A stretch of 64,000 nt of DNA, taken from assembly GCA_016213105.1 (NCBI GenBank), contig JACRBN010000026.1, positions 434,001 to 498,000 of the forward strand. The letters are read 5' to 3'. Position 1 is the stretch's first letter. Each line of letters begins with the position of its first letter. Made by a program: the position numbers and the translations under genes. The notes under the pieces were generated by a model that was not told where the DNA came from, did no database searches, and worked only from the letters and a program-made list of their open reading frames with translations. Of this stretch, positions 12,385 to 23,906 are shown one piece after another. Origin of the DNA: Chloroflexota bacterium (GTDB taxonomy: Bacteria > Chloroflexota > Anaerolineae > Anaerolineales > Villigracilaceae).

Positions 12385-15300
12385 ATGAACCGAAAAGCTT
12401 TCTTCCGAATCTCGTTCCTGACAGTCACCCTGATGGGCCTGTTGTTTTTGTTCGTCCAGCCGGGCCTGGCGGCGATTGGCCAGCCGCGGCCGCTGATGTC
12501 GTTGGGCTGGGTCGGGAATATGTGGCCGGCGGGTGGGACGACCCACACCATCACAACGGGAACCAGTTTTAACGTGTATGTCCAGGTGTGGAAGGGTGGG
12601 GTGACCGATTCCTCCGGCCAGGGCGCGAACATTACTTGTACGCTGACCTGGACGCCAGTTCCGTACTTTGGCGGGAGTGGGGGGACGACAACCGAGACCG
12701 CCATGACATATAACGGGGACCCTACCCCCAGTAATGACGAATACATGGCTACCATCACCCCTTCTGTCGGGTTGTACGAAATTTCGGCGTATTGCACCGA
12801 CACGACGGACAGCACTTCAATGGAGCAGGGGGCAGGCAAGATCAAGCTGGTGGTGGATGCCGCCAGCGGAGCCTGCAACGGGGCAGTCCAGAATAATAAC
12901 AATCTTTACTGGAACGGCCTCTTCCACGATTCATTTTCCACCTCTTACCGTACTCCCACCGGCCCGGTCACGACCGGCTCCACCGTCACCCTGACCTTCC
13001 GCACCTGCATGGATGACGTGAATGCGGTTCCCACCATTCGCATCTGGAACGACCGCACTAATACCTCCACCACTCCCGCCATGACCTTCGACGGGCACGG
13101 CAGCGACGCGACCCTGGGCGGCGTAACCTACTGGACCTATGACCTGTCTGTGGGCGCGGACCCCACCATTTACTATTACGTCTTCCAAACCACCGATGGC
13201 AGCGCGACGGCCTACTATCGCGATGACGACCCGAAATTTTATGGCGGCGGATATGGCGCGGCGGAGAGCAACCAGACCACGGCCTACGATAATTCCTACC
13301 AACTGACCGTCTACGATCCCTCCTTCTCCGTTCCATCCTGGATGCAGCGCGGCGTGGTCTACCAGATCTTCCCTGACCGCTTCCGCGACGGGAGCGCGGG
13401 CAATAACCCGGCCGCGGGACGTTTCTTCTACAACGAATCGGGCGGGACGATCGTCCGCTCCAATGACACCGATTGGAACACGGCCATCTGCGACCCGCGT
13501 TCGGCGGGCGGTTGTCTGGGCGATTACAGCAACAATTTCTACGGCGGCGACCTGGCGGGCATCACCGCAAAGATTAATGCGGGCTACTTCGACCAATTGG
13601 GTGTCTCGGTGATCTATCTCAACCCGATCTTCCTCTCCCCGTCCAATCACAAATACGACACCGCCAACTACTTGCAAATCGATCCCGATTTCGGCACCTT
13701 GACTGATTTTGGTAATCTGGTAACCGCGGCGAATAGCCACAACATCAAGATCATTCTGGACGGCGTCTTCAACCACACCTCGTCCGATAGCATGTATTTC
13801 GACCGCTATGGCCGCTATGATTCTGCGGGTACGATCAATGATATCGATGGCGGCACCGACGATAATACCGGCGCGTGCGAAGCCGGCGCATCCCCCTTCT
13901 ATTCCTGGTTCTACTTCCCGGCGGGCAGCAATCCGGGTAAGGATCAGCCCGGCAATGTGACCGTCTACTGCCCCAACGGTGCGGGCAATGCGGACCAGAC
14001 CTACGAAGCCTGGTATGGCTACTCCTCCCTGCCGAAATTGCAGGCCAACATTCCAGCGGTCACCGACCTGATCTGGGATAACGGGACCAGTTCCGTCGGT
14101 CCGTATTGGATCGATCAGGGTGCTTCGGGCTGGCGCTTCGACGTCGGCGCGGATGTCGACCCGGGCCTGACGAACGATCCCTCCAACGATTATTGGGAAG
14201 GTTTCCGCACGGCCGTGCGTACCGTCGACTCTGAGACGATCACCCTGGGCGAGGAATGGGGCGACGCCTCCCCCTGGCTGCTGGGCAACGAGTGGGACAG
14301 CGTGATGAATTACCGCTATCGCTCGGCGGTGATGAGCTGGCTGTTCACAGGTTGCTCGGGCGACGGCTGCACAGGCGGGACATCCTTCTCGGACAACGAC
14401 AGCAACTCCTTCAGTTCCAGTGGTTCGATCTCGGCGATTACGCCCTCGCAGTTCAACGCGCGCCTGCTTTCCATCCAGGAGGATTATCCGCCCATGGCCT
14501 GGAAGGCCATGATGAACCTGGAAGGCTCGCATGACACCAACCGCATCCGCTTCCTGCTGAAAAAAGTCAATAATAACGACGACCCAGCCGCCATCCAACG
14601 CATGAAGGAATTATGGCTGTTCGCCTTCACCTACGCCGGCGCGCCCACCCTGTATTACGGCGACGAGGTTGGCCTGAGTCAGGATGGCGTGTGGGACGGT
14701 TCGCAATATCAGGATGATCCCTACAACCGCGCGCCCTTCCCCTGGGATGATGAGTCTGGAACCAGTTTCACGGCGGACACCGACCTGCAAGACTTTGCGC
14801 GCCAGATGGCCAGCATCCGCCACAGCTACCGTGCCCTGCAGGACGGCGACGTTCAGCACGGCATCCTGATCGATGATGTCAACAAACTCTACGGCTTTGC
14901 GCGCACGAATGGCAGCCAGACGGCGCTCATCGTGCTCAACCGGGATAGTTCTTCTCACAGCGTCACCCTTAGCGGATTGAACTCCGCGCCTTATTCCCTG
15001 ACAAACGGCACAGACCTGGTGGATGTCATCTCAGGCGACACGTATACCGTTTCAGGCGGGGCTGTTACGGGCATTTTGGTCGACGCGACCTGGGGCGCGG
15101 TTCTGCTCGAACAGAATAAGATCGAAACTCCCGCCGAGCCGGGCGCCGCGACGTTCAACTTCAACGGCTCCGACGTAACCCTGGGCTGGAACCTGGTATC
15201 CCTGGATAGCGGCATTGGGCGCGAAACGCCGACCGTCTATACCATTCATCGCAGCGCCACCTATCCCTTCACGCCCGACGGGTCCAATTGGCTTGCCAAT

Positions 15301-18300
15301 GTCAATCCCCCGACATATGGCGCCGCCCAGTCGCGCCTGACCTATACTGACTCCGGCGTGAGCGGAACGGCCGCGTATGCCATTTGCGCCGAGAATGCCG
15401 GCGGCAAGGCGGGCTGTGTCACCTTCGCGCCTCAATGCGCCGCAGATACGAATATGTTCCGCTCCACCGCCAGCGGCCTCTGGACCGATGAGACCACCTG
15501 GCAGGTTTCACCGGATGGCATCAGTTGGGCCGCGGCCTCCTGCTGGCCGACAGCCGATAACGATGCCATCGACATCCTGGCTGGTCATACGGTCACGGTC
15601 GACTCGAATTTCCCGGTCGATCAATTAACCATCGCATCCACCGCACAAGTCACAGTGGACAGCGGCACAACCTGGACCGTTGCAAATGGGACCGGCACCG
15701 ACCTGACCGTCAATGGAACGGTGGCCAATGCCGGCACGATCACGATGACCGGCAGCGGCTCCTTTGCCGCAGGAAGCACCTACCAGCACAGCCAGAACGG
15801 CGGCGTCATCCCGACCGAAACCTGGAACTCGACCTCGACCGTCCTGGTGACGGGCGTGACCACCACTGCGCCGACTGGGCTGGGGCAGACCTTCGGCAAT
15901 TTCACCTGGAATTCCACTGGACAAACGGCCGATGTCACCCTGGCGGGCGGCCTGACGACGGTGGTTGGCAACTTCACCGTGACCTCCACGGGCGCCAGCC
16001 AGCTTGGCCTGGTGGCGGATTCACCGGCTGCTCCGACAACCAATATCACCGGCAACCTGACGGTGAACGGCGGGACGTTCGCCTTTTCGACGGGCACGTC
16101 CGCTCCCACCGTGAACCTCACCGGGAACGTGGTGCTGGCGGGCGGAACGCTGCGCCCCGGGGCCGGCAGCGGCGTCCCCACCTTTACGGTCAGGGGCAAC
16201 TGGACGAATAACGGCAGCGCCTTCGACGGCGGCACGGGAACCGTGACCTTTAATGGGACCGCAGGACAGACCATCAATGGAACGGCGGCCAGCCAGACCT
16301 TCAATCACATCACCATCAGCAAAACGGCGGGCACACTCCTGAACACAGGCGGCAGCACCACCAGCCTGACCGTGAACAACCTGACTGAGACGACCGGCAA
16401 TTTCACCGCGCCGGCGGCCCTCGATATCAACGGCAATTTTGTACATTCTGCCGGCACCTTCACCGCTGGCGCCAACATCACCATTGCCGGGAACTGGACC
16501 AACAATGCGGCGGGTTTCGGGGCGAACGGCGGCACCGTCACCTTTGACGGAGCCACGCAGGCGCTTGGCGGTTCAACTGCGACAACGTTCAGCACGTTGA
16601 CTGTTGCCAATGGATCGACCACGACCAGCACGATTAACCCGACCATCGCAACATTTAATGTGAACAATGGCGGCAAATATATTCATAATCCTACTGTTGC
16701 TGCTGGCCTCCCCGGTACCACGAGAAATTTTGGCGCAACCAGTACCATTGAGTATCAAAGGAATTCAGCAGCTGCATGCCCCGTCTCGGCTAATTATGGT
16801 AATCTAATTATTAATGTCAGTAATTTCAGCCAAAGTATTGGCTGTGCAGGTGCTTTGACTTCGATAGCTGGCGACCTTGAGATCAAAAATACCAGCGGAT
16901 TCGAGTTTAGATTTGCCTCTACTCAGAGCACAACCCACAATATCGGTGGGAATTTGATCATCAGCGGCGGAACCCTGGTGTTTTCGAGCACCACGGGCGC
17001 TCCCACAGTAAACGTGGCTGGCAACACAACGATTTCTTCGGGTACGCTCAATCTGGGTGGTGGCTCTGGTGCTCCCACGTTGAATATCAGCGGCAACTTT
17101 ACCCAGACGGGCGGTACCCTGACGCGCACCGGCACCAATAACCGCACCATCAACCTGGCCGGTAATTGGAGCTATTCCGCTGGAACGTTCACCAACACAG
17201 GCATTGTAGTCAACATGAACGGTACCTTGGCCCAAACCATCGGCGGGTCGGCTGCCACGACCTTCAACAGCCTGACGATCAGCAATACGGCCGGCGTCTC
17301 GCTCAGCGGCGTCGATGCCACCGTCAACAGCGTGCTGACGCTGGGCGCCAACAAACTCGCCACGGGCGCAAACAGGGTCATCCTGGTCTCCACATCCTCC
17401 CTGTCGCGCACGACCGGCTGGGTCAACGGCAACCTCCAGAAGCCGGTGGCAGCCAATACCATCTCGCCCATCACCTTCGAGGTGGGCGGCGCGACGAATT
17501 ATGCGCCCATCACTATCACCTTTAGTGGAGTATCCGCCGGCACCCTGACCGGCTCCACCACCGATGGGCAGCATCCCGCCTTCCGCGACAACAGCATCAG
17601 CAGTGAGAACTACATCAACCGCTACTGGACACTGACGCCTTCCGTCGGAATGACCTTCACCAGCTACGATGCCACTTTCACCTTTAATGACCCGGGCGAC
17701 TATGTCGGTTCCCCCACGATTGGCTCCCTGGCGCTGCAAAAATATTCGGGCGGAATCTGGACAAGTTCTCCCAATACCCCTTCCTCCACTGCCACCACCG
17801 TGACCGGCACCGGCTTCACCAGCTTCAGCGACTTCTACGCCGGCAACGGCGGCACGCCCCTGCCCGTGACGCTCTCCTATGTCAATGCCGCGCGCAACGG
17901 CACCGAAGTGCTCTTCGACTGGTCGACCGTCACCGAAAGCGGCAATCTCGGCTTCAACCTGTATGGCGTCGATGAGAACGGCCAGCGCGTCCTGTTGAAC
18001 AAAGCGTTGATCCCCTCGCAGGATATCGACTCCCTGTCGCGCCTGGACTACAGCCTGCAAGTCGAGACACCCTTCGACACCTTCTACATCGAGGAAGTCG
18101 ACATTACCGGACGGGGCGACTGGCACGGCCCCTACCAGGTCGGCCAAACCTACGGCGCCCGCGCCGAGTCCAGCCGCATCGATTGGGCCGCCGTCCGCGC
18201 CGAACGCCAGGCCGCCAGCAAGGACCTGCGCCTCGAACTGACCGCCCTGCCCGAGGAACTCAAGCTCAACCTCAAGGTGCGCCAGACCGGCCTGCAGCGC

Positions 18301-20298
18301 GTCACCTACGAAATGCTGCGCGCCGCCGGCCTCGACCTCGAAGGCCTGCCGGCCGCCAACCTGCTGCTGACCAACCGCGGCAAACAGGTTCCGCTCTACG
18401 TGGGCGGGCCCGATCCCCTGGGCGCGGGCAGCTTCCTGGAATTCAACGGCGAGGCCCTGGATACGCTCTACACCGACGCCAACGTCTACACCCTGCAGGT
18501 CAGTCCCACTCCGGTTGGATCGCTGCTGGTCGAAGACACCAACTTCAACCGCTGGCCGATGGAGGTCGCCCTCTCGTACACCCAGACCCTGGTGTTGAAC
18601 AACCAGCGCGAATTTGCCAACTACGCGCCCGGCGCGGACGCCTGGTACGACACCTCGATGACGGCCTACACCAGCGCCAGGAGTTGGGAGATCCCCTTCC
18701 AGGTGGACGGCCTGGCCGATCCCACCGAGAAGATCGACCTCGACCTGGTGGTGTGGGGCGTGACGGACTGGCCGCAAAGCCCTGACCATCACCTGCTGGT
18801 CAGCGTCAACGGCCTGCAAGTGGCCACCGATACCTTCGACGGCCTGGTCGAACGCACCCTGCACATTGCATTGCCGGCCGGCCTGCTGCGTGAAGGCAGC
18901 AACACCCTCACCCTGACCCTGCCGGGCGACACCGGCGTGCCGGGCGAGGTCATCAACCTGGACAAATTCAGTCTCACCTACTCGCGCCTGATGCAGGCCC
19001 GCGAAGGGCGCCTGGCCTTCACGGCCGCCGCCAACTCCTTTACGGTGACGAACCTGCCCGGCGAGGATGTGGTGGTCTACCGCGTCAACAGCAAGGGCAC
19101 CCTGACCCGCATGGACCTGGTGCGCACCAGAGCCGCCGGCGACGGCAGCTTCACGGCCACCTTCAACGGCGCGCCCCAGCCCACGAAGTACATCGTCTCG
19201 ACCGTCGACGCGATGTTTACGCCCGAGTTCGAAACGCCCTACGTGCAGGCCGACCTGGATCAGCCCGCCCAATACCTGGTTATCGCCCATCCCGATTTCA
19301 TCGCTGGCATCCAGCCGCTCGTCCAGGCGCGCGAGGCCCAGGGCCTGACCGTGAGCGTGGTCGACGTGACCGACCTCTACCGCCGCTACACCTATGGCAT
19401 CTTCGACCCGCAGGCCATTCAGCAATACATCGCCTACGCGGTCGAAAACCTTGGCACCGAATACGTTCTGCTGGTGGGCGGCGACACCTATGATTACCGC
19501 AACCACCTGGGCATCGACAGCGTCAGCTTCATCCCCTCGCTGTACGTTGCCACGGGCCCGATTGCCCGCTACGTCCCGGCCGATCCGCTTTATGCGGACG
19601 TGAACCATGACAATGTGCCGGATGTGGCGCTGGGTCGTTTCCCGGTGCGCAGCGCGGCCGAACTGAATCTGATGGTCTCCAAGACCCTGGCCTACGCTTC
19701 CAAGGCCTACGACCAGACCGCCGTGTTCGCCTCGGACCTGAGCGAGGGCGGGCTGTCCTTCAAGGACATCAACGAAGCCATGAGCGCGCAACTGCCCGGC
19801 TGGTCGGTGGAAAACGTGCATCTGGATGATCTGAGCGTGGTAACTGCCCGCAATCAGTTGATCGCCGCCATGAACCGCGGCACTGCGCTGGTCACCTTCA
19901 CCGGGCATTCCGGTCCGCAGGAATGGACCTTCAGCAGCCTGTTCGATATGAGCCATGCCGCCGCCCTGACCAATCACGGCAAACCCTTCGTGGTGGTTCA
20001 GTGGGGCTGCTGGAACAGCTATTACATTGACCCGCAGCATAACTACATGGTGCAAAGCTTCCTGTTCTCGGGAGACCAGGGCGCGGCGGCGGTACTGGGC
20101 GCTTCGACCCTGACCGACTCCACCTCCGAGATCCTGTTGGGCCGCCTGCTGACGCCCAAACTGGCCAGCCCGGGCGTGACCCTCGGCCAGGCCTTGCTGC
20201 TGGCGAAGAACGAACTGGCCCAGGCTCATCCCGAACTGCTGGATGTCCTGCTGGGCTGGTCATTGATGGGCGATCCCGCTTTGGTCATTACCCCCTAG
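12385..20298 (+). CDS. Giant secreted chimera: GH13 alpha-amylase, beta-helix-like repeats, C25 gingipain-like peptidase
   Basis: 2637 residues from the ATG at 12385 (RBS AAGGTGGT). Residues 1-28 are a signal peptide. A beta-sandwich region like the N-terminal modules of pullulanases follows to about 300. The GH13 barrel (about 315-820) has all four conserved regions: DGVFNH (D459-H464), GWRFDVG (nucleophile D586), LGEEW (acid E623) and SHDTNR (H716, D717). After an FnIII-like segment comes SGLWTDETTW and some 700 residues of Thr/Gly/Asn-rich repeats (GNLTVNGGT-type), probably a beta-helix. The C-terminal third contains a C25 peptidase-like domain, with FTGHSG (H2508) and WGCWNS (C2542) as the likely catalytic pair. 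The fusion suggests surface starch breakdown plus proteolysis (inference). Its stop is 2-11 nt from the lasso cyclase start. Confidence 0.88.
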   Translation: MNRKAFFRISFLTVTLMGLLFLFVQPGLAAIGQPRPLMSLGWVGNMWPAGGTTHTITTGTSFNVYVQVWKGGVTDSSGQGANITCTLTWTPVPYFGGSGGTTTETAMTYNGDPTPSNDEYMATITPSVGLYEISAYCTDTTDSTSMEQGAGKIKLVVDAASGACNGAVQNNNNLYWNGLFHDSFSTSYRTPTGPVTTGSTVTLTFRTCMDDVNAVPTIRIWNDRTNTSTTPAMTFDGHGSDATLGGVTYWTYDLSVGADPTIYYYVFQTTDGSATAYYRDDDPKFYGGGYGAAESNQTTAYDNSYQLTVYDPSFSVPSWMQRGVVYQIFPDRFRDGSAGNNPAAGRFFYNESGGTIVRSNDTDWNTAICDPRSAGGCLGDYSNNFYGGDLAGITAKINAGYFDQLGVSVIYLNPIFLSPSNHKYDTANYLQIDPDFGTLTDFGNLVTAANSHNIKIILDGVFNHTSSDSMYFDRYGRYDSAGTINDIDGGTDDNTGACEAGASPFYSWFYFPAGSNPGKDQPGNVTVYCPNGAGNADQTYEAWYGYSSLPKLQANIPAVTDLIWDNGTSSVGPYWIDQGASGWRFDVGADVDPGLTNDPSNDYWEGFRTAVRTVDSETITLGEEWGDASPWLLGNEWDSVMNYRYRSAVMSWLFTGCSGDGCTGGTSFSDNDSNSFSSSGSISAITPSQFNARLLSIQEDYPPMAWKAMMNLEGSHDTNRIRFLLKKVNNNDDPAAIQRMKELWLFAFTYAGAPTLYYGDEVGLSQDGVWDGSQYQDDPYNRAPFPWDDESGTSFTADTDLQDFARQMASIRHSYRALQDGDVQHGILIDDVNKLYGFARTNGSQTALIVLNRDSSSHSVTLSGLNSAPYSLTNGTDLVDVISGDTYTVSGGAVTGILVDATWGAVLLEQNKIETPAEPGAATFNFNGSDVTLGWNLVSLDSGIGRETPTVYTIHRSATYPFTPDGSNWLANVNPPTYGAAQSRLTYTDSGVSGTAAYAICAENAGGKAGCVTFAPQCAADTNMFRSTASGLWTDETTWQVSPDGISWAAASCWPTADNDAIDILAGHTVTVDSNFPVDQLTIASTAQVTVDSGTTWTVANGTGTDLTVNGTVANAGTITMTGSGSFAAGSTYQHSQNGGVIPTETWNSTSTVLVTGVTTTAPTGLGQTFGNFTWNSTGQTADVTLAGGLTTVVGNFTVTSTGASQLGLVADSPAAPTTNITGNLTVNGGTFAFSTGTSAPTVNLTGNVVLAGGTLRPGAGSGVPTFTVRGNWTNNGSAFDGGTGTVTFNGTAGQTINGTAASQTFNHITISKTAGTLLNTGGSTTSLTVNNLTETTGNFTAPAALDINGNFVHSAGTFTAGANITIAGNWTNNAAGFGANGGTVTFDGATQALGGSTATTFSTLTVANGSTTTSTINPTIATFNVNNGGKYIHNPTVAAGLPGTTRNFGATSTIEYQRNSAAACPVSANYGNLIINVSNFSQSIGCAGALTSIAGDLEIKNTSGFEFRFASTQSTTHNIGGNLIISGGTLVFSSTTGAPTVNVAGNTTISSGTLNLGGGSGAPTLNISGNFTQTGGTLTRTGTNNRTINLAGNWSYSAGTFTNTGIVVNMNGTLAQTIGGSAATTFNSLTISNTAGVSLSGVDATVNSVLTLGANKLATGANRVILVSTSSLSRTTGWVNGNLQKPVAANTISPITFEVGGATNYAPITITFSGVSAGTLTGSTTDGQHPAFRDNSISSENYINRYWTLTPSVGMTFTSYDATFTFNDPGDYVGSPTIGSLALQKYSGGIWTSSPNTPSSTATTVTGTGFTSFSDFYAGNGGTPLPVTLSYVNAARNGTEVLFDWSTVTESGNLGFNLYGVDENGQRVLLNKALIPSQDIDSLSRLDYSLQVETPFDTFYIEEVDITGRGDWHGPYQVGQTYGARAESSRIDWAAVRAERQAASKDLRLELTALPEELKLNLKVRQTGLQRVTYEMLRAAGLDLEGLPAANLLLTNRGKQVPLYVGGPDPLGAGSFLEFNGEALDTLYTDANVYTLQVSPTPVGSLLVEDTNFNRWPMEVALSYTQTLVLNNQREFANYAPGADAWYDTSMTAYTSARSWEIPFQVDGLADPTEKIDLDLVVWGVTDWPQSPDHHLLVSVNGLQVATDTFDGLVERTLHIALPAGLLREGSNTLTLTLPGDTGVPGEVINLDKFSLTYSRLMQAREGRLAFTAAANSFTVTNLPGEDVVVYRVNSKGTLTRMDLVRTRAAGDGSFTATFNGAPQPTKYIVSTVDAMFTPEFETPYVQADLDQPAQYLVIAHPDFIAGIQPLVQAREAQGLTVSVVDVTDLYRRYTYGIFDPQAIQQYIAYAVENLGTEYVLLVGGDTYDYRNHLGIDSVSFIPSLYVATGPIARYVPADPLYADVNHDNVPDVALGRFPVRSAAELNLMVSKTLAYASKAYDQTAVFASDLSEGGLSFKDINEAMSAQLPGWSVENVHLDDLSVVTARNQLIAAMNRGTALVTFTGHSGPQEWTFSSLFDMSHAAALTNHGKPFVVVQWGCWNSYYIDPQHNYMVQSFLFSGDQGAAAVLGASTLTDSTSEILLGRLLTPKLASPGVTLGQALLLAKNELAQAHPELLDVLLGWSLMGDPALVITP

Positions 20299-20309: not shown

Positions 20310-22127
20310 TTGAGCGGACTGGCTGTCATCTACGAACGTTCCAACGCACCGGCGCAAGCCGGTGCGTTGGAACGCGTCCTATCCCGCCTGTCCCATCGCG
20401 GCCCGGATGGCAGGGATGAATTTTCGGCCGGGCCCCTTGCGATGGGCCACTGGCATTTCTGGACCACCCCCGAGGAGGTGAACGAAAGACAACCTCTGGC
20501 CGTGGGCGGGCTTCCGTTTCGGATCGTGTTCGACGGCCGCCTGGACGACCGCCCGGGCCTGCTGGCGCAGTTGGGGCTGACCTCGGCAGACGATGCCTGC
20601 CTGTCCGATGCGGCCCTGGTCCTGTACGCTTATTCCCGCTGGGGCGCGGATTGCCTTCAACGCTTCCTGGGCGAATTTGCCTTCATTCTCTTCGATGAAA
20701 ACCGCAAGGAATTGTTCTGCGCCCGCGACCCGCTGGGCGACCGCACCTTGTTCTATTCCCTGACAGATACACGCCTCGTGGCGGCCTCTGAAGCCTGGGC
20801 CGTGGCCGCGGCGATGGACAGGGTGGAATTGAATGAAACCGCGGCGGCGCATTTCTTTGCGCTGCGGGCCGCTGAAAATGGTCAGACCTTTTTCAACGGC
20901 ATCCATGAACTTCTGCCCGCGCACGGGCTGCTCGTCCAGGACGGCGGACTGCGACAGTGGCGCTATTGGACTCCCGAATCTTCCCATATACGCGGCAGGT
21001 CAGACGAAGAGCTGGCGGAGGAATTCCGTTCCCTGGTGGAGCAGAGCGTGCGCAGCCGCTTGCGCGCCTCCACGCCGGTTGGCATTCTGATGAGCGGCGG
21101 CCTCGACTCGGGCTCATTGGCTTGTCTGGCCTCCCAAATGCTGGGACCCGAAGCCCTCGTCACCATCTCGTACGTGTTCGATGAGTTGAAGGATTGCGAC
21201 GAGCGCGAGTATATCCAGACCATCATCGACCGCTATGGGGTTCGGTCAATTCAAATTCCCTGCGATGATGCCTGGCCGTGGAAGGATTGGGAATCCTGGC
21301 CCCACCCTCCCAATCAGCCCGAGGTCAATCCCTACCGCCTGTTGAAGGAATGCGCCTATCGGCGCGCGCATGAGGAAGGCCTGCGCGTTCTGATGCCCGG
21401 CGCATTTGGCGACAACCTCTATTGCGGAGAGGAGGATTGGCTGGCCGACCTGTTCCGCGATGGACGTTTGCGGGAGGCAGCCCGGGAACTCCAGCGTCAC
21501 ATCCGTTATGCGGGCTGGGGCGCAACTTTAAGATCGGATTACCTGCGCCAGGCCGGCCGCCGTTTGTTGGGCCTGCGGCGCCCCCGCAAATCCGCTCCTG
21601 CCTGGCTGACGCCGCATTCCACAGCCTTCCTGAGCGATGCCTGCGCCTGGTTCGAGCCTGCCTTCGAATTGCGGGATAATCTGCTGGGCGACCATATTGC
21701 CCAGGACGCGGCCTATGAAACCTTCAGCGCCAGCCGCCATGGAGTGGAACTGCGTCACCCCTACCGTGACCGCCGCCTGGTCGAGTTCGTATTGTCCCTG
21801 CCCGCCTACCAGCTCTACAATCGCGGGTATTACAAATACATCCTGCGCCGCGCCATGCGGGACCACCTGCCGCAGCCCATCCTGGCCCGTTTGCAGTCCA
21901 GCCCCTTGTTTTCCCTGATTTCCCGCGGGCGGGAGCGGGAGGGACCGACATTGCAGGCATACATGACCGGCCCCAATGCGGCCTGGCGCAAATACGTGCG
22001 GCCCGATTGGCTCATCGAGCGGTCACGGATCGAACTGACTCAGGAAACGGATGGCCCCGAGGCGATCATCCCCTGGTTGTGTGTATCATTTTCAGCTTGG
22101 TCTCAAGCATCTTTTTCGTCAACATGA
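20310..22127 (+). CDS. Lasso peptide macrolactam synthetase (asparagine-synthetase-like)
   Basis: Two domains as in AsnB: an N-terminal class-II amidotransferase fold (LSHRGPDGRDE, then LGEFAFILFDENRKELFCARDPLGDRTLFY) and a C-terminal synthetase domain with the ATP PP-loop SGGLDSGS (about residue 262). The start TTG at 20310 gives MSGLAVIYE, matching other lasso cyclases; TTG at 20301 is the alternative. The catalytic Cys that follows Met in true glutamine-hydrolysing enzymes is absent, as expected of lasso cyclases, which adenylate the ring Asp/Glu and join it to Gly1. The gene follows the amylase/C25 gene with no room for an own RBS, so it is probably translationally coupled. A 17-bp perfect palindrome lies 27 nt inside it. 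Confidence 0.88.
   Translation: MSGLAVIYERSNAPAQAGALERVLSRLSHRGPDGRDEFSAGPLAMGHWHFWTTPEEVNERQPLAVGGLPFRIVFDGRLDDRPGLLAQLGLTSADDACLSDAALVLYAYSRWGADCLQRFLGEFAFILFDENRKELFCARDPLGDRTLFYSLTDTRLVAASEAWAVAAAMDRVELNETAAAHFFALRAAENGQTFFNGIHELLPAHGLLVQDGGLRQWRYWTPESSHIRGRSDEELAEEFRSLVEQSVRSRLRASTPVGILMSGGLDSGSLACLASQMLGPEALVTISYVFDELKDCDEREYIQTIIDRYGVRSIQIPCDDAWPWKDWESWPHPPNQPEVNPYRLLKECAYRRAHEEGLRVLMPGAFGDNLYCGEEDWLADLFRDGRLREAARELQRHIRYAGWGATLRSDYLRQAGRRLLGLRRPRKSAPAWLTPHSTAFLSDACAWFEPAFELRDNLLGDHIAQDAAYETFSASRHGVELRHPYRDRRLVEFVLSLPAYQLYNRGYYKYILRRAMRDHLPQPILARLQSSPLFSLISRGREREGPTLQAYMTGPNAAWRKYVRPDWLIERSRIELTQETDGPEAIIPWLCVSFSAWSQASFSST
20337..20374. repeat. Perfect 17-bp palindrome with GCAA loop at the 5' end of the lasso cyclase
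   Basis: CGTTCCAACGCACCGGC, loop GCAA, exact complement. It is in frame and encodes part of SNAPAQAGALER. GCAA is a GNRA tetraloop, so the RNA hairpin would be very stable. Confidence 0.85.
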
Positions 22128-22141
22128 CGTGGAGTGAAAAC

Positions 22142-22381
22142 ATGTCGAAGTCTCATGCAGTGCTTACAGGAATACGCAAACCCTACCGAAAGCCCCATTT
22201 GAAGAAGTTGGGGGATTTGCGTACGCTCACTCTGGGCGGCTCACTTGGAACGGGCGATTCAGGGTCGAGTTTTACATATAAGGTGAAGGTTGGGCTTCCC
22301 CAGCCCGGCGGATACTACCCGCCCGAATTTTTCCCTCACCCCGAGGGAGCGCCGCCGCTATCCGGCGAAAAATCAGAATGA
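22142..22381 (+). CDS. Lasso peptide precursor
   Basis: 79 residues, start ATG 22142 with GGAGTG RBS. The leader matches the B1 recognition pattern YxxPxLx3Gx5Tx exactly: Y15, P18, L20, G24 and T30, with T30 as penultimate leader residue. The core would start at G32: GGSLGTGD, giving an 8-residue ring between Gly1 and Asp8. The tail after the ring is about 40 residues, long for a lasso peptide, with several Pro and aromatic residues (GGYYPPEFFPHPEG) and Ser near the C-terminus (PPLSGEKSE). Either the tail is trimmed after cyclisation or the mature product is unusually long. The gene sits between the cyclase and the kinase/B1/B2 genes. Confidence 0.85.
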   Translation: MSKSHAVLTGIRKPYRKPHLKKLGDLRTLTLGGSLGTGDSGSSFTYKVKVGLPQPGGYYPPEFFPHPEGAPPLSGEKSE

Positions 22382-22397
22382 CTCATCCCAGCCATAG

Positions 22398-23231
22398 ATG
22401 ATGTACTGCTATCGCCCGGCTGGACAGGAACTCCACTTCCCGGGGCTGTTCCCTGAGCTCGAGGCCTTTACGTGTCCTGGAGTCGCGCCTGGTCCCGCGG
22501 CCCCGACTGTCCCTGCGCCCCGAGCCTTGACCTCCCGCACACAGGGCTGGGTCGCCGGGGAACTGCGCGACGTGGAGGCGTGGTCCGCTTCGACGGGCGT
22601 GCAGCTCAAGGTCAGCGGGGTCGGCGATTTCCACGTCACACCACAGGGCATCCAGTGCCTGGGCGGGACCGCCGACCGCCCGTTGACAGGTCTGGAACGG
22701 GAAACGATCCTGGGGCCAGCGCTCGTGCTGGCCCTTGCTTTTCATGAAACCTGGTGCCTGCATGCCAGCGCCGTGCTGTTCAACGGTCAGGTCACGGCCT
22801 TCCTGGGCGAATCGGGCCAGGGAAAATCCACCCTGGCAGCCCATCTTTCCGAAGCGGGCTGGCGGCTGGTCGCCGACGACATCCTGCCCGTAGCGCGGGA
22901 CCAGGCCGGGGTCCAGGCCTGGCCGCATTTCCCGCAGTTAAAGTTGACGGTCCAGCCCGGGGTCTCGCTGGCGGAGCAGCTGCCCCTGAGCCGCATTTGT
23001 GTGCTGGCCCAGGCGGAGGTCCCTGAAATACGGCGGCTTTCGAGCGGGGAGGCCTTGCAGGCATTGCTCCGTCACACGGCCGGGACGCGCCTGTTCGATC
23101 CACCCCTGCTGGCGAAACATATGGCCTTTTGCGCCTGGGCCGCCGCGCAGACGCCCGTCTTTTCCCTGGCTTATCCGCGCAGATGGGAGTCCCTTCCCAA
23201 AGTGAAGGAATTATTGGAGAACCCATGTTGA
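22398..23231 (+). CDS. HPr-kinase-like protein of the lasso cluster
   Basis: 277 residues resembling the HPrK/P C-terminal kinase domain: LHASAVLFNGQVTAFLGESGQGKSTLAAHL, with the P-loop GESGQGKS at about residue 136, then WRLVADDILPV for the Walker-B-like region. Homologues in paeninodin-type lasso clusters phosphorylate a Ser on the precursor tail; other relatives sit beside PqqD-like genes with unknown roles. Here the precursor ends EKSE, so the target would be S78 or S74 rather than the last residue (inference). The gene overlaps the B1 gene by 7 nt, which supports a common operon. Confidence 0.8.
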   Translation: MMYCYRPAGQELHFPGLFPELEAFTCPGVAPGPAAPTVPAPRALTSRTQGWVAGELRDVEAWSASTGVQLKVSGVGDFHVTPQGIQCLGGTADRPLTGLERETILGPALVLALAFHETWCLHASAVLFNGQVTAFLGESGQGKSTLAAHLSEAGWRLVADDILPVARDQAGVQAWPHFPQLKLTVQPGVSLAEQLPLSRICVLAQAEVPEIRRLSSGEALQALLRHTAGTRLFDPPLLAKHMAFCAWAAAQTPVFSLAYPRRWESLPKVKELLENPC

Positions 23232-23506
23232 CCCTGGATTCCAAATTGCACATTCCCGCGCACGTGCTCTTCACCACCGTGGAGCAGGATGCCATCCTGC
23301 TCCATACCGGCACCAATCAATACTTTGCGCTCGAAGAGGTGGGCACGCGCCTGTGGGAGTTGTTGAGCCGCGGCATGGGACTGCGCGAGGCGCATCAGGC
23401 GCTGCTGGCTGAATACGAAGTGACGCCGGCTGAACTGGAACGGGATCTGCTCGACCTGCTCGGCCATCTTGTGGAGAGCGATCTTGTCGACGTGGTTGAC
23501 GGATAA
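23225..23506 (+). CDS. Lasso leader-binding protein B1 (PqqD/RRE-like)
   Basis: 93 residues with the PqqD-like winged-helix fold: a beta-hairpin (LHIPAHVLFTTVEQDAILLHTGTNQYFALEEVG) followed by three helices (TRLWELL, LREAHQALLAEY, ELERDLLDLLGHLVESDLVDV). Such RiPP recognition elements bind the YxxP part of the leader and hand the precursor to the B2 protease. The start at 23225 is chosen because it follows an in-phase overlap with the kinase gene and matches family length. It overlaps the B2 gene at its 3' end. Confidence 0.87.
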   Translation: MLTLDSKLHIPAHVLFTTVEQDAILLHTGTNQYFALEEVGTRLWELLSRGMGLREAHQALLAEYEVTPAELERDLLDLLGHLVESDLVDVVDG

Positions 23507-23906
23507 GGCCCGCCTCGCGCGCGGACTCTCTGCGGCCGACTGGCTGGTTTTGGCCGAGGCGTGGTGGACCCTGCCCGCCTATTGGCTGGCCCTGCGTTGG
23601 GTGAGCTATGACCGTCTCGGTCGGGAACCCGACGGCGGGAAAGTGGATTTGCCTGCGGTCGAAAGATTGCATCGCCTGGTGACGTGGGCCTCCCGCCTGC
23701 AGCTCCTGCCGATGACCTGCCTGGTGCGGGCTTGCACCCTGCGCCGCACGGCCGCCCGCCGCGGACTTCAGGCGCAGGTGCGCATTGGCGCGGCGCGGAA
23801 CGTGGAAGGCATCCACGCGCACGCCTGGGTGGAGGTGGATGGGCAGGTGGTCGGGGAGGACGGGGTCGCGGGACAGTTTAAGGTTTTGAAATCTTCCCAA
23901 GTGTAG
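23484..23906 (+). CDS. Lasso leader peptidase B2 (transglutaminase-like)
   Basis: About 140 residues. Catalytic triad residues of the bacterial transglutaminase-like fold are visible: Cys79 in MTCLVRA, His113 in HAHAWVEVDG and Asp119. LRRTAARRGLQAQVRIG between them is typical of lasso B2 proteins, which remove the leader after the penultimate Thr. The start is uncertain: TTG codons at 23469, 23484 and 23496 are all in frame and overlap the end of B1, and no ATG is available, so translation is likely coupled. No ABC transporter follows, unlike many lasso clusters. The cluster ends here. Confidence 0.85.
   Translation: MSTWLTDKARLARGLSAADWLVLAEAWWTLPAYWLALRWVSYDRLGREPDGGKVDLPAVERLHRLVTWASRLQLLPMTCLVRACTLRRTAARRGLQAQVRIGAARNVEGIHAHAWVEVDGQVVGEDGVAGQFKVLKSSQV

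Follow-up and report, generated by a model that had tools for sequence, protein, structure and literature searches.

A kinase-type lasso peptide operon of a Chloroflexota bacterium and its genetic partner, a giant secreted protein with a PorU-like C25 peptidase

Within a 64,000-nucleotide stretch of a Chloroflexota genome (assembly GCA_016213105.1, contig JACRBN010000026.1, positions 434,001 to 498,000; family Villigracilaceae), here called the window, five genes in the order C-A-K-B1-B2 lie on the + strand at 20310-23906 and have the content of a kinase-type lasso peptide operon. The genome to which the window belongs is 5.4 Mb in size (G000, the window lying on contig C25; everywhere else in this text C25 denotes the peptidase family). 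Immediately upstream lies the gene of a giant secreted protein that ends in a C25 peptidase module, and the lasso genes and this module recur together in related genomes. The locus is read as a new, C25-coupled variant of the lasso peptide clusters. It is probable that the operon is a working one, that its functional unit includes the upstream giant gene and that the peptide acts with the C25 peptidase outside the cell. The locus comprises the following features.

12385..20298, + strand: giant secreted protein with a signal peptide (assigned by eye), an alpha-amylase catalytic domain, a variable middle and a C-terminal C25 peptidase
19273..20286, + strand: C25 peptidase domain of the PorU/gingipain type
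20310..22127, + strand: C, AsnB-like lasso macrolactam synthetase; TTG start, SGGLDS (ATP) loop kept, N-terminal Cys absent
22124..22381, + strand: A, lasso precursor; start at 22124 or at the second ATG, 22142
22184..22234, + strand: leader recognition motif YRKPHLKKLGDLRTLTL, with Thr at -2; Thr-Leu in 21/21 precursors
22235..22378, + strand: core GGSLGTGD and a 40-residue tail; predicted isopeptide Gly1-Asp8
22398..23231, + strand: K, HprK-like lasso precursor kinase; H122, K143, D160, D161
23225..23506, + strand: B1, PqqD-like leader-binding protein (recognition element of ribosomally synthesised and post-translationally modified peptides, RiPPs), by family match
23484..23906, + strand: B2, transglutaminase-like leader peptidase; TTG start at 23484 or 23469

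The five lasso genes are tightly packed: the ATG of A lies inside the stop codon of C, B1 overlaps K by 7 nt and B2 overlaps B1. The C protein matches the Pfam families Asn_synthase (129 bits) and GATase_7 (71 bits), and its homologues in relatives begin aligning at L/M/V/I-S-[GA]-x-[AV]-x, where a Cys is absent. K is HprK-related with a weak score (35.7 bits against a cut-off of 200), B1 is a PqqD protein (58.2 bits) and B2 matches both Transglut_core3 (61 bits) and the NCBIfam model lasso_biosyn_B2 (57.9 bits, above the cut-off of 33), being the sole PF13471 match of its own genome. An earlier note on this DNA had described just such a run of overlapping genes, with a cyclase devoid of the glutaminase Cys, an HPr-kinase-like K, a PqqD-like B1 and a transglutaminase-like B2. 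This observation is confirmed, each family being matched (K weakly) at the place described, and its interpretation as a lasso cluster is supported. A match of B1 or B2 to another RiPP class, the objection that the same note had raised, was also looked for, and B2 was found to match the lasso equivalog above its cut-off.

The evidence that joins the C25 gene to the operon comes from the relatives. In a sample of 152 genomes of the family, with C called at E < 1e-110 and the C25 module at E < 1e-200, a C of the window's type was found in 19 and the C25 module in 19, with 17 genomes holding both; the latter count rises to 18 when G056, with a 64-aa C25 fragment at a contig start, is included. The C25 module occurs without this C in two genomes (G050, where the contig ends at the giant gene, and G153, whose only C is of another type, with 33% identity, on another contig), and neither gene is present in 131. 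Fisher's test on these counts (18/1/2/131) gives p 3.5e-20 when relatedness is ignored. In 17 of the 18 genomes having both, the C25 gene lies beside the lasso genes on the same strand. Contigs mis-binned in metagenome-assembled genomes are possible, yet lasso genes and C25 are linked inside single contigs, and this is seen again in many genomes.

Gene orders were read in 21 family genomes with C or C25. The order giant-C-A-K-B1-B2 is present in 11, among them G056, whose giant is cut by the contig start, and G039, with two extra open reading frames (ORFs) between the giant and C. The giant lies between C and A in two (C-giant-A-K-B1-B2; G040 and G155, the latter with an additional pair of giant and A), and on both sides of C in G003 (giant-A-C-giant-K). 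Three genomes have giant-C-A-K without B2 or either B gene nearby (G107, G002 and G150), two have giant-A-K-B1-B2 without C (G050, at the contig end, and G153), one has C-A-K on a contig other than that of C25 (G166) and one is a fragment (G130, a 3.1-kb contig ending inside C). Mere neighbourhood is spoken against by these orders, because the giant shifts its position yet remains at the locus. Four loci were repeats of others (L106 = L035, L108 = L037, L048 = L034 and L049 = L036), and the other lasso clusters L118-L121, L124, L056, L065, L126 and L127 stand outside the counts. On the evidence of these orders, the upstream giant gene is a member of the conserved locus, and one that the earlier note had missed. 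The start of the operon, which that note had called unusual, is so indeed: C begins 11 nt past the stop of a 2660-aa ORF that itself belongs to the locus.

Several details of these loci stand apart from the linkage. At L034:7215-8962 two unrelated ORFs, one DNA methyltransferase-like by eye, separate the giant from C; in G040 B1 is broken by an in-frame stop (L052:16961-16963), which is either real or a sequencing error; and at L035:12142-12258 a partial extra copy of the start of K precedes the full K. Genes for DUF4012, LysM, TMEM260-like and Wzz/tyrosine-kinase proteins, in varying sets, lie downstream of the lasso genes in L053, L034, L036, L037 and L054, with similar sets seen by eye in L105, L114 and L115 and none seen beside the window's operon. 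The lasso clusters left out of the counts form a second kind of kinase-bearing cluster in the relatives, with a more distant C and other gene orders; none of them was seen beside C25, and one, L126, contains a run of several precursor-like ORFs.

The ORF of the giant opens at TTG 12316, with the likely start, chosen by eye, at ATG 12385. Its protein matches Pfam Peptidase_C25 with 227 bits and Alpha-amylase with 184 bits, and the catalytic His and Cys of the peptidase are invariant in all 14 aligned homologues. The C25 module is encoded from about 18100 to 20298. The C-terminal 700 residues match PorU (6za2) over nearly their whole length in a profile comparison (E 1.1e-15), the match to gingipain covering the catalytic part only. 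PorU 6za2 is also the top Foldseek match of the C25 model (E 6.5e-20); this model is of low confidence (pLDDT 62), and the identity of the module leans on the sequence profile for that reason. The module thus resembles PorU, a family C25 peptidase that serves as sortase in type IX secretion, including the catalytic pair; unlike PorU it forms the C-terminal end of a giant protein that has an N-terminal part of its own. Those N-terminal parts differ among seven giants or parts of giants, the window's included: amylase, SdrD-B repeats, DUF7507/GEVED/CARDB and others. In G003 (L050/L064) the lasso genes are flanked by two giants whose last 350 residues look identical by eye and whose N-termini are different, as though gene conversion or an exchange of modules had taken place. 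Near the weaker C25 matches of the window's own genome, on contigs C9 and C21, the profile models used found no RiPP genes.

The precursor consists of the leader YRKPHLKKLGDLRTLTL followed by the core GGSLGTGDSGSS..., in which position 8 is Asp. The fit to YxxPxLx3Gx5Tx claimed in the earlier note was borne out: a six-frame scan of the whole window gives a single match to YxxPxLx3Gx5T, at 22184, against an average of 0.03 in 30 first-order Markov sequences of equal length, which rules out a chance leader motif. A set of 21 precursors from 20 genomes was assembled beside homologous enzymes with a profile built from such leaders, so that conservation of the leader within the set is partly by construction. 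Thr at -2, Leu at -1 and Gly1 are kept in all 21, and an Asp or Glu acceptor at position 8 or 9 is present in all except that of G153. The combination of a YxxPxL leader, Thr at -2, Gly1 and Asp/Glu at 7-9 is found in 20 of the 21, the window's precursor among them. Loss of the precursor in relatives that keep the enzymes, which the earlier note had named as the finding that would speak against it, is ruled out: the residues of leader and ring are conserved across 20 genomes. The precursor of G565, a genome of another family (Thr at -2, Ser1, Glu at 7 and 9), was left out of the set.

The ring is largely GGSPGxGDSG across the set, the tails vary, those of G024 and G039 being shorter than the window's, and cores run from 16 to 48 residues; an excerpt of one review gives lasso cores as generally 13-33 residues (PMC13352647). 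The two precursors of G155 have a dN/dS of 0.095 over 65 codons, tail included, with mostly silent differences along the whole length. Because these copies differ mostly at silent sites, the long tail of this type is protein under selection. Two further pairs gave 0.38 (G039/G024, about 25 changes) and 0.58 (G040/G050, about 5 changes). The precursor of G153 (L109:10439-10579, coordinates on the reverse complement of L109) has no Asp or Glu at 7-9: its core, GTSTGGGWS, lacks an acceptor, and it lies in a giant-A-K-B1-B2 locus of a genome with no C of the window's type. This single case, in a draft genome that is 87% complete, is what lost cyclisation would look like.

The kinase keeps the residues of its kind while its substrate differs from the known one. 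His122, Lys143, Asp160 and Asp161, assigned by eye from the His-Lys-Asp-Asp motif described in an excerpt of PMC9266682, are invariant in 15 of 15 homologues, and the AlphaFold model (pLDDT 91) has an HprK/PEPCK-like fold, with HprK/P and PEPCK as best Foldseek matches (3tqf foremost, TM-score 0.35 by query and 0.60 by target). Characterised lasso kinases modify a C-terminal Ser that the same excerpt describes as extremely conserved in their precursors (PMC9266682). None of the 21 precursors ends in Ser, which rules this residue out as the substrate; K therefore cannot use the known paeninodin substrate. Candidate phosphorylation sites would be residue 3, which is Ser in 20 precursors and Thr in one, and Ser behind the ring.

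Lasso formation may be expected because of these gene families, and by homology we infer the following route. B1 would bind the YxxPxL leader, K would phosphorylate the precursor at a Ser or Thr other than the C-terminal residue, B2 would cleave after Thr-Leu, and C would close the Gly1-Asp8 ring around the tail to give the lasso fold. The peptide would then exit the cell via a transporter encoded elsewhere and, once outside, would most likely be the ligand or substrate of the PorU-like C25 module of the giant. The contact could take one of three forms: the peptidase may trim the long tail, it may attach the peptide, or the peptide may modulate the peptidase. On balance a direct relation between peptide and C25 is the likelier case, whether as substrate (trimming or attachment) or as regulator.

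The absence of an ABC (ATP-binding cassette) transporter, pointed out in the earlier note, holds in the relatives too: a pattern of Walker A plus LSGGx, which recovers 8 of 9 ABC loci of the window's own genome, finds none in the whole window, in 26 stretches from relatives or in 11 further loci, and a transporter hidden nearby is ruled out by this pattern there. The genome has 14 ABC_membrane matches elsewhere, the nearest on the same contig about 50 kb upstream of C and outside the window. For export, the transporter must be encoded elsewhere, or else the peptide stays inside the cell. A sphingomonad lasso operon without a D gene is on record in an excerpt of PMC11006600. No lasso isopeptidase was found among the six genes of the locus, which are the genes scanned for it; the neighbouring peptidase is the C25.

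The partnership extends beyond the family, in part with another chemistry. In an order-wide sample of 400 genomes, C matches at E <= 1e-60 were found in 19, of which 15 carry the window's type, all within the family; the more distant ones are in G153 and, outside the family, in G083, G216 and G352. In a phylum-wide sample of 400 genomes, the C25 module (E <= 1e-30) was found in 29, four in the family and 25 outside, and all of the latter were examined. One of these, G565, has adjacent lasso genes in the order giant-A-C-K. In 16 of the 25, PqqD, radical SAM and HprK-like proteins are encoded upstream of C25 in the same orientation, no more than about 8 kb away, the widest gap being that of G443.

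L129:1221-9476 (G200): C25 giant preceded by PqqD, radical SAM protein and HprK-like protein
L130, L131, L132, L136, L138, L139, L142, L145, L147-L150, L153-L156: the same non-lasso cassette with a C25 giant

All ten radical SAM loci that were read between these genes contain an ORF of 49-70 residues that combines a YxxPx[LIVM] leader with Cys in its C-terminal part. Conversely, such a C25 is present in 15 of the 17 genomes in which that radical SAM protein was found (E <= 1e-45). Among 39 other stretches (306 kb, window included), used as a control, the radical SAM model had no match and the C25 model matched the window's gene only, while the model of the second kinase type gave six matches, namely the window's K and five in the other lasso clusters L016, L118, L119, L120 and L124. 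The PqqD, radical SAM and HprK-like proteins of G200 weakly match ScmD, ScmE/F and ScmC of the SynChlorMet (Scm) system in NCBIfam, with scores far below the curated cut-offs and a chemistry that is not that of the window's operon; for the radical SAM protein, heme b synthase (124 bits against a cut-off of 500) and other models give better scores. A broader possibility, which we put forward tentatively and at slightly less than an even chance, is a general kind of RiPP system in Chloroflexota, in which PqqD-type recognition and an HprK-like kinase would be combined with an exchangeable lasso cyclase or radical SAM protein to make a small YxxP-leader peptide, the dedicated partner of the giant's PorU-like C25, be it as ligand, as substrate or as a group attached to it.

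A number of observations weigh against the coupling of the lasso operon with C25, or against the operon as a lasso operon. No product is known for it, C scores 379 bits with the NCBIfam model lass_lactam_cya (curated cut-off 525), and the leader scores 17.7 bits with lasso_leader_L3 (cut-off 19). In G166 C25 and C lie on separate contigs, with unrelated genes after the giant. B1 and/or B2 are absent locally in G003, G107, G002 and G150; B2 occurs elsewhere in the genome in the first three, in G003 and G107 as part of another lasso cluster. G565 has neither B1 nor B2 in the stretch read. Eight of the 25 outside genomes have a C25 relative and no full RiPP cassette in the stretch fetched (G513 having a PqqD-like gene only), and the same is true of all six further order-level genomes with weaker C25 matches that were looked at (G065, G066, G070, G073, G082 and G095; some stretches short, a PqqD-like gene in two), four others of that group (G072, G079, G086 and G091) being left out. 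The trees of C25, C and K are only moderately congruent; for C25 and C, a Mantel test on the distances in 17 genomes gave a moderate correlation (r 0.49, p 0.006). Finally, because the N-terminal domains of the giants vary, a common task for them is not obvious.

Two other explanations also give the peptidase a direct role. Gingipains cut after Arg or Lys, and it is conceivable, though rather doubtful, that C25 is a maturation protease that after export cuts the tail behind a basic residue to leave a lasso of ordinary size (14-23 residues). All 12 precursors with cores of at least 30 residues have long tails with a Lys or Arg at 14-23, and the other nine have cores of 16-26 residues, already of ordinary length, four of these with a basic residue behind the ring. 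However, a random tail often carries a basic residue at 14-23 and the count of 12 was set against no null model; the module is closer to PorU than to gingipain; and the residue aligned by eye with the Arg-pocket Asp of RgpB is not conserved, so that a trimming specificity read from that pocket is unsupported. Alternatively, the peptide may be dedicated to inhibiting or regulating the C25 peptidase, since some lasso peptides inhibit proteases. The near-constant partnership would fit this role, as would a ring that is largely GGSPGxGDSG while the tails vary, and the class of RiPP linked to C25 changes between clades, from lasso in one to radical SAM peptide elsewhere, as if stiffness outweighed any one chemistry. 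Nevertheless, such a role would leave the need for a kinase unexplained, and we consider it unlikely.

The remaining explanations dispense with contact between peptide and protease. Peptide and giant may merely share an envelope or exopolysaccharide locus and a regulator, a serious possibility to which we nevertheless give well under an even chance. Wzz/tyrosine-kinase, DUF4012, LysM and TMEM260-like genes follow in several related loci, and the giants bear SdrD-B, DUF11, GEVED or amylase domains, but no such envelope-type genes were seen beside the window's operon or at some other loci, whereas C25 is nearly always there. It is very improbable that this is an ordinary paeninodin-type cluster with the giant a neighbour by descent only. 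Gene order and kinase residues are indeed as in paeninodin clusters; however, the giant relocates relative to C and A in relatives and yet stays at the locus, it recurs in another family (G565) and with another RiPP chemistry, and the precursors have no C-terminal Ser and the locus no D gene, unlike paeninodin clusters.

Comparison with described systems places the coupled locus more closely. The firmicute paeninodin (kinase) clusters have the order C-A-K-B1-B2-D in an excerpt of PMC5067487, which bears out the kinase-type gene complement recognised in the earlier note. The window's operon shares with them the order C-A-K-B1-B2, the split B and an HprK-like kinase with His-Lys-Asp-Asp (excerpts of PMC5067487 and PMC9266682). 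It differs in that a D transporter is missing, none of the 21 precursors ends in Ser, tails reach up to 40 residues behind the ring and a C25 giant is added. With the isopeptidase-type proteobacterial clusters (astexin, caulosegnin) it has in common a peptidase gene in place of the ABC transporter (PMC5067487, in the same excerpt); there the peptidase is a lasso-specific isopeptidase, whereas the window's peptidase is a C25 cysteine peptidase that forms part of a giant secreted protein. Biosynthetic gene cluster predictions for Anaerolineae metagenome-assembled genomes include the lassopeptide class (excerpt of PMC11748557), and a survey of anaerobes, six Chloroflexi among them, lists, in the part consulted, no lasso cluster for the phylum and notes that some lasso clusters contain HPr kinases (PMC4289311). 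In open-access PMC no literature was found that links lasso peptides to gingipain, C25 peptidases or type IX secretion, or RiPPs of the PqqD/radical SAM kind to C25 peptidases, and none on SynChlorMet or on PorU with Chloroflexi and C25.

The kinase, whose precursors lack the known phosphorylation site, makes the substrate rule of the lasso kinases testable. The natural role of many lasso peptides is not known, and the near-constant genetic partner described here, a secreted PorU-like peptidase, offers a concrete protein with which the role of a lasso peptide can be probed. If the coupling is true, one peptidase family would be paired with two unrelated peptide chemistries, and rigid ring peptides may then be seen as partners of surface proteases.

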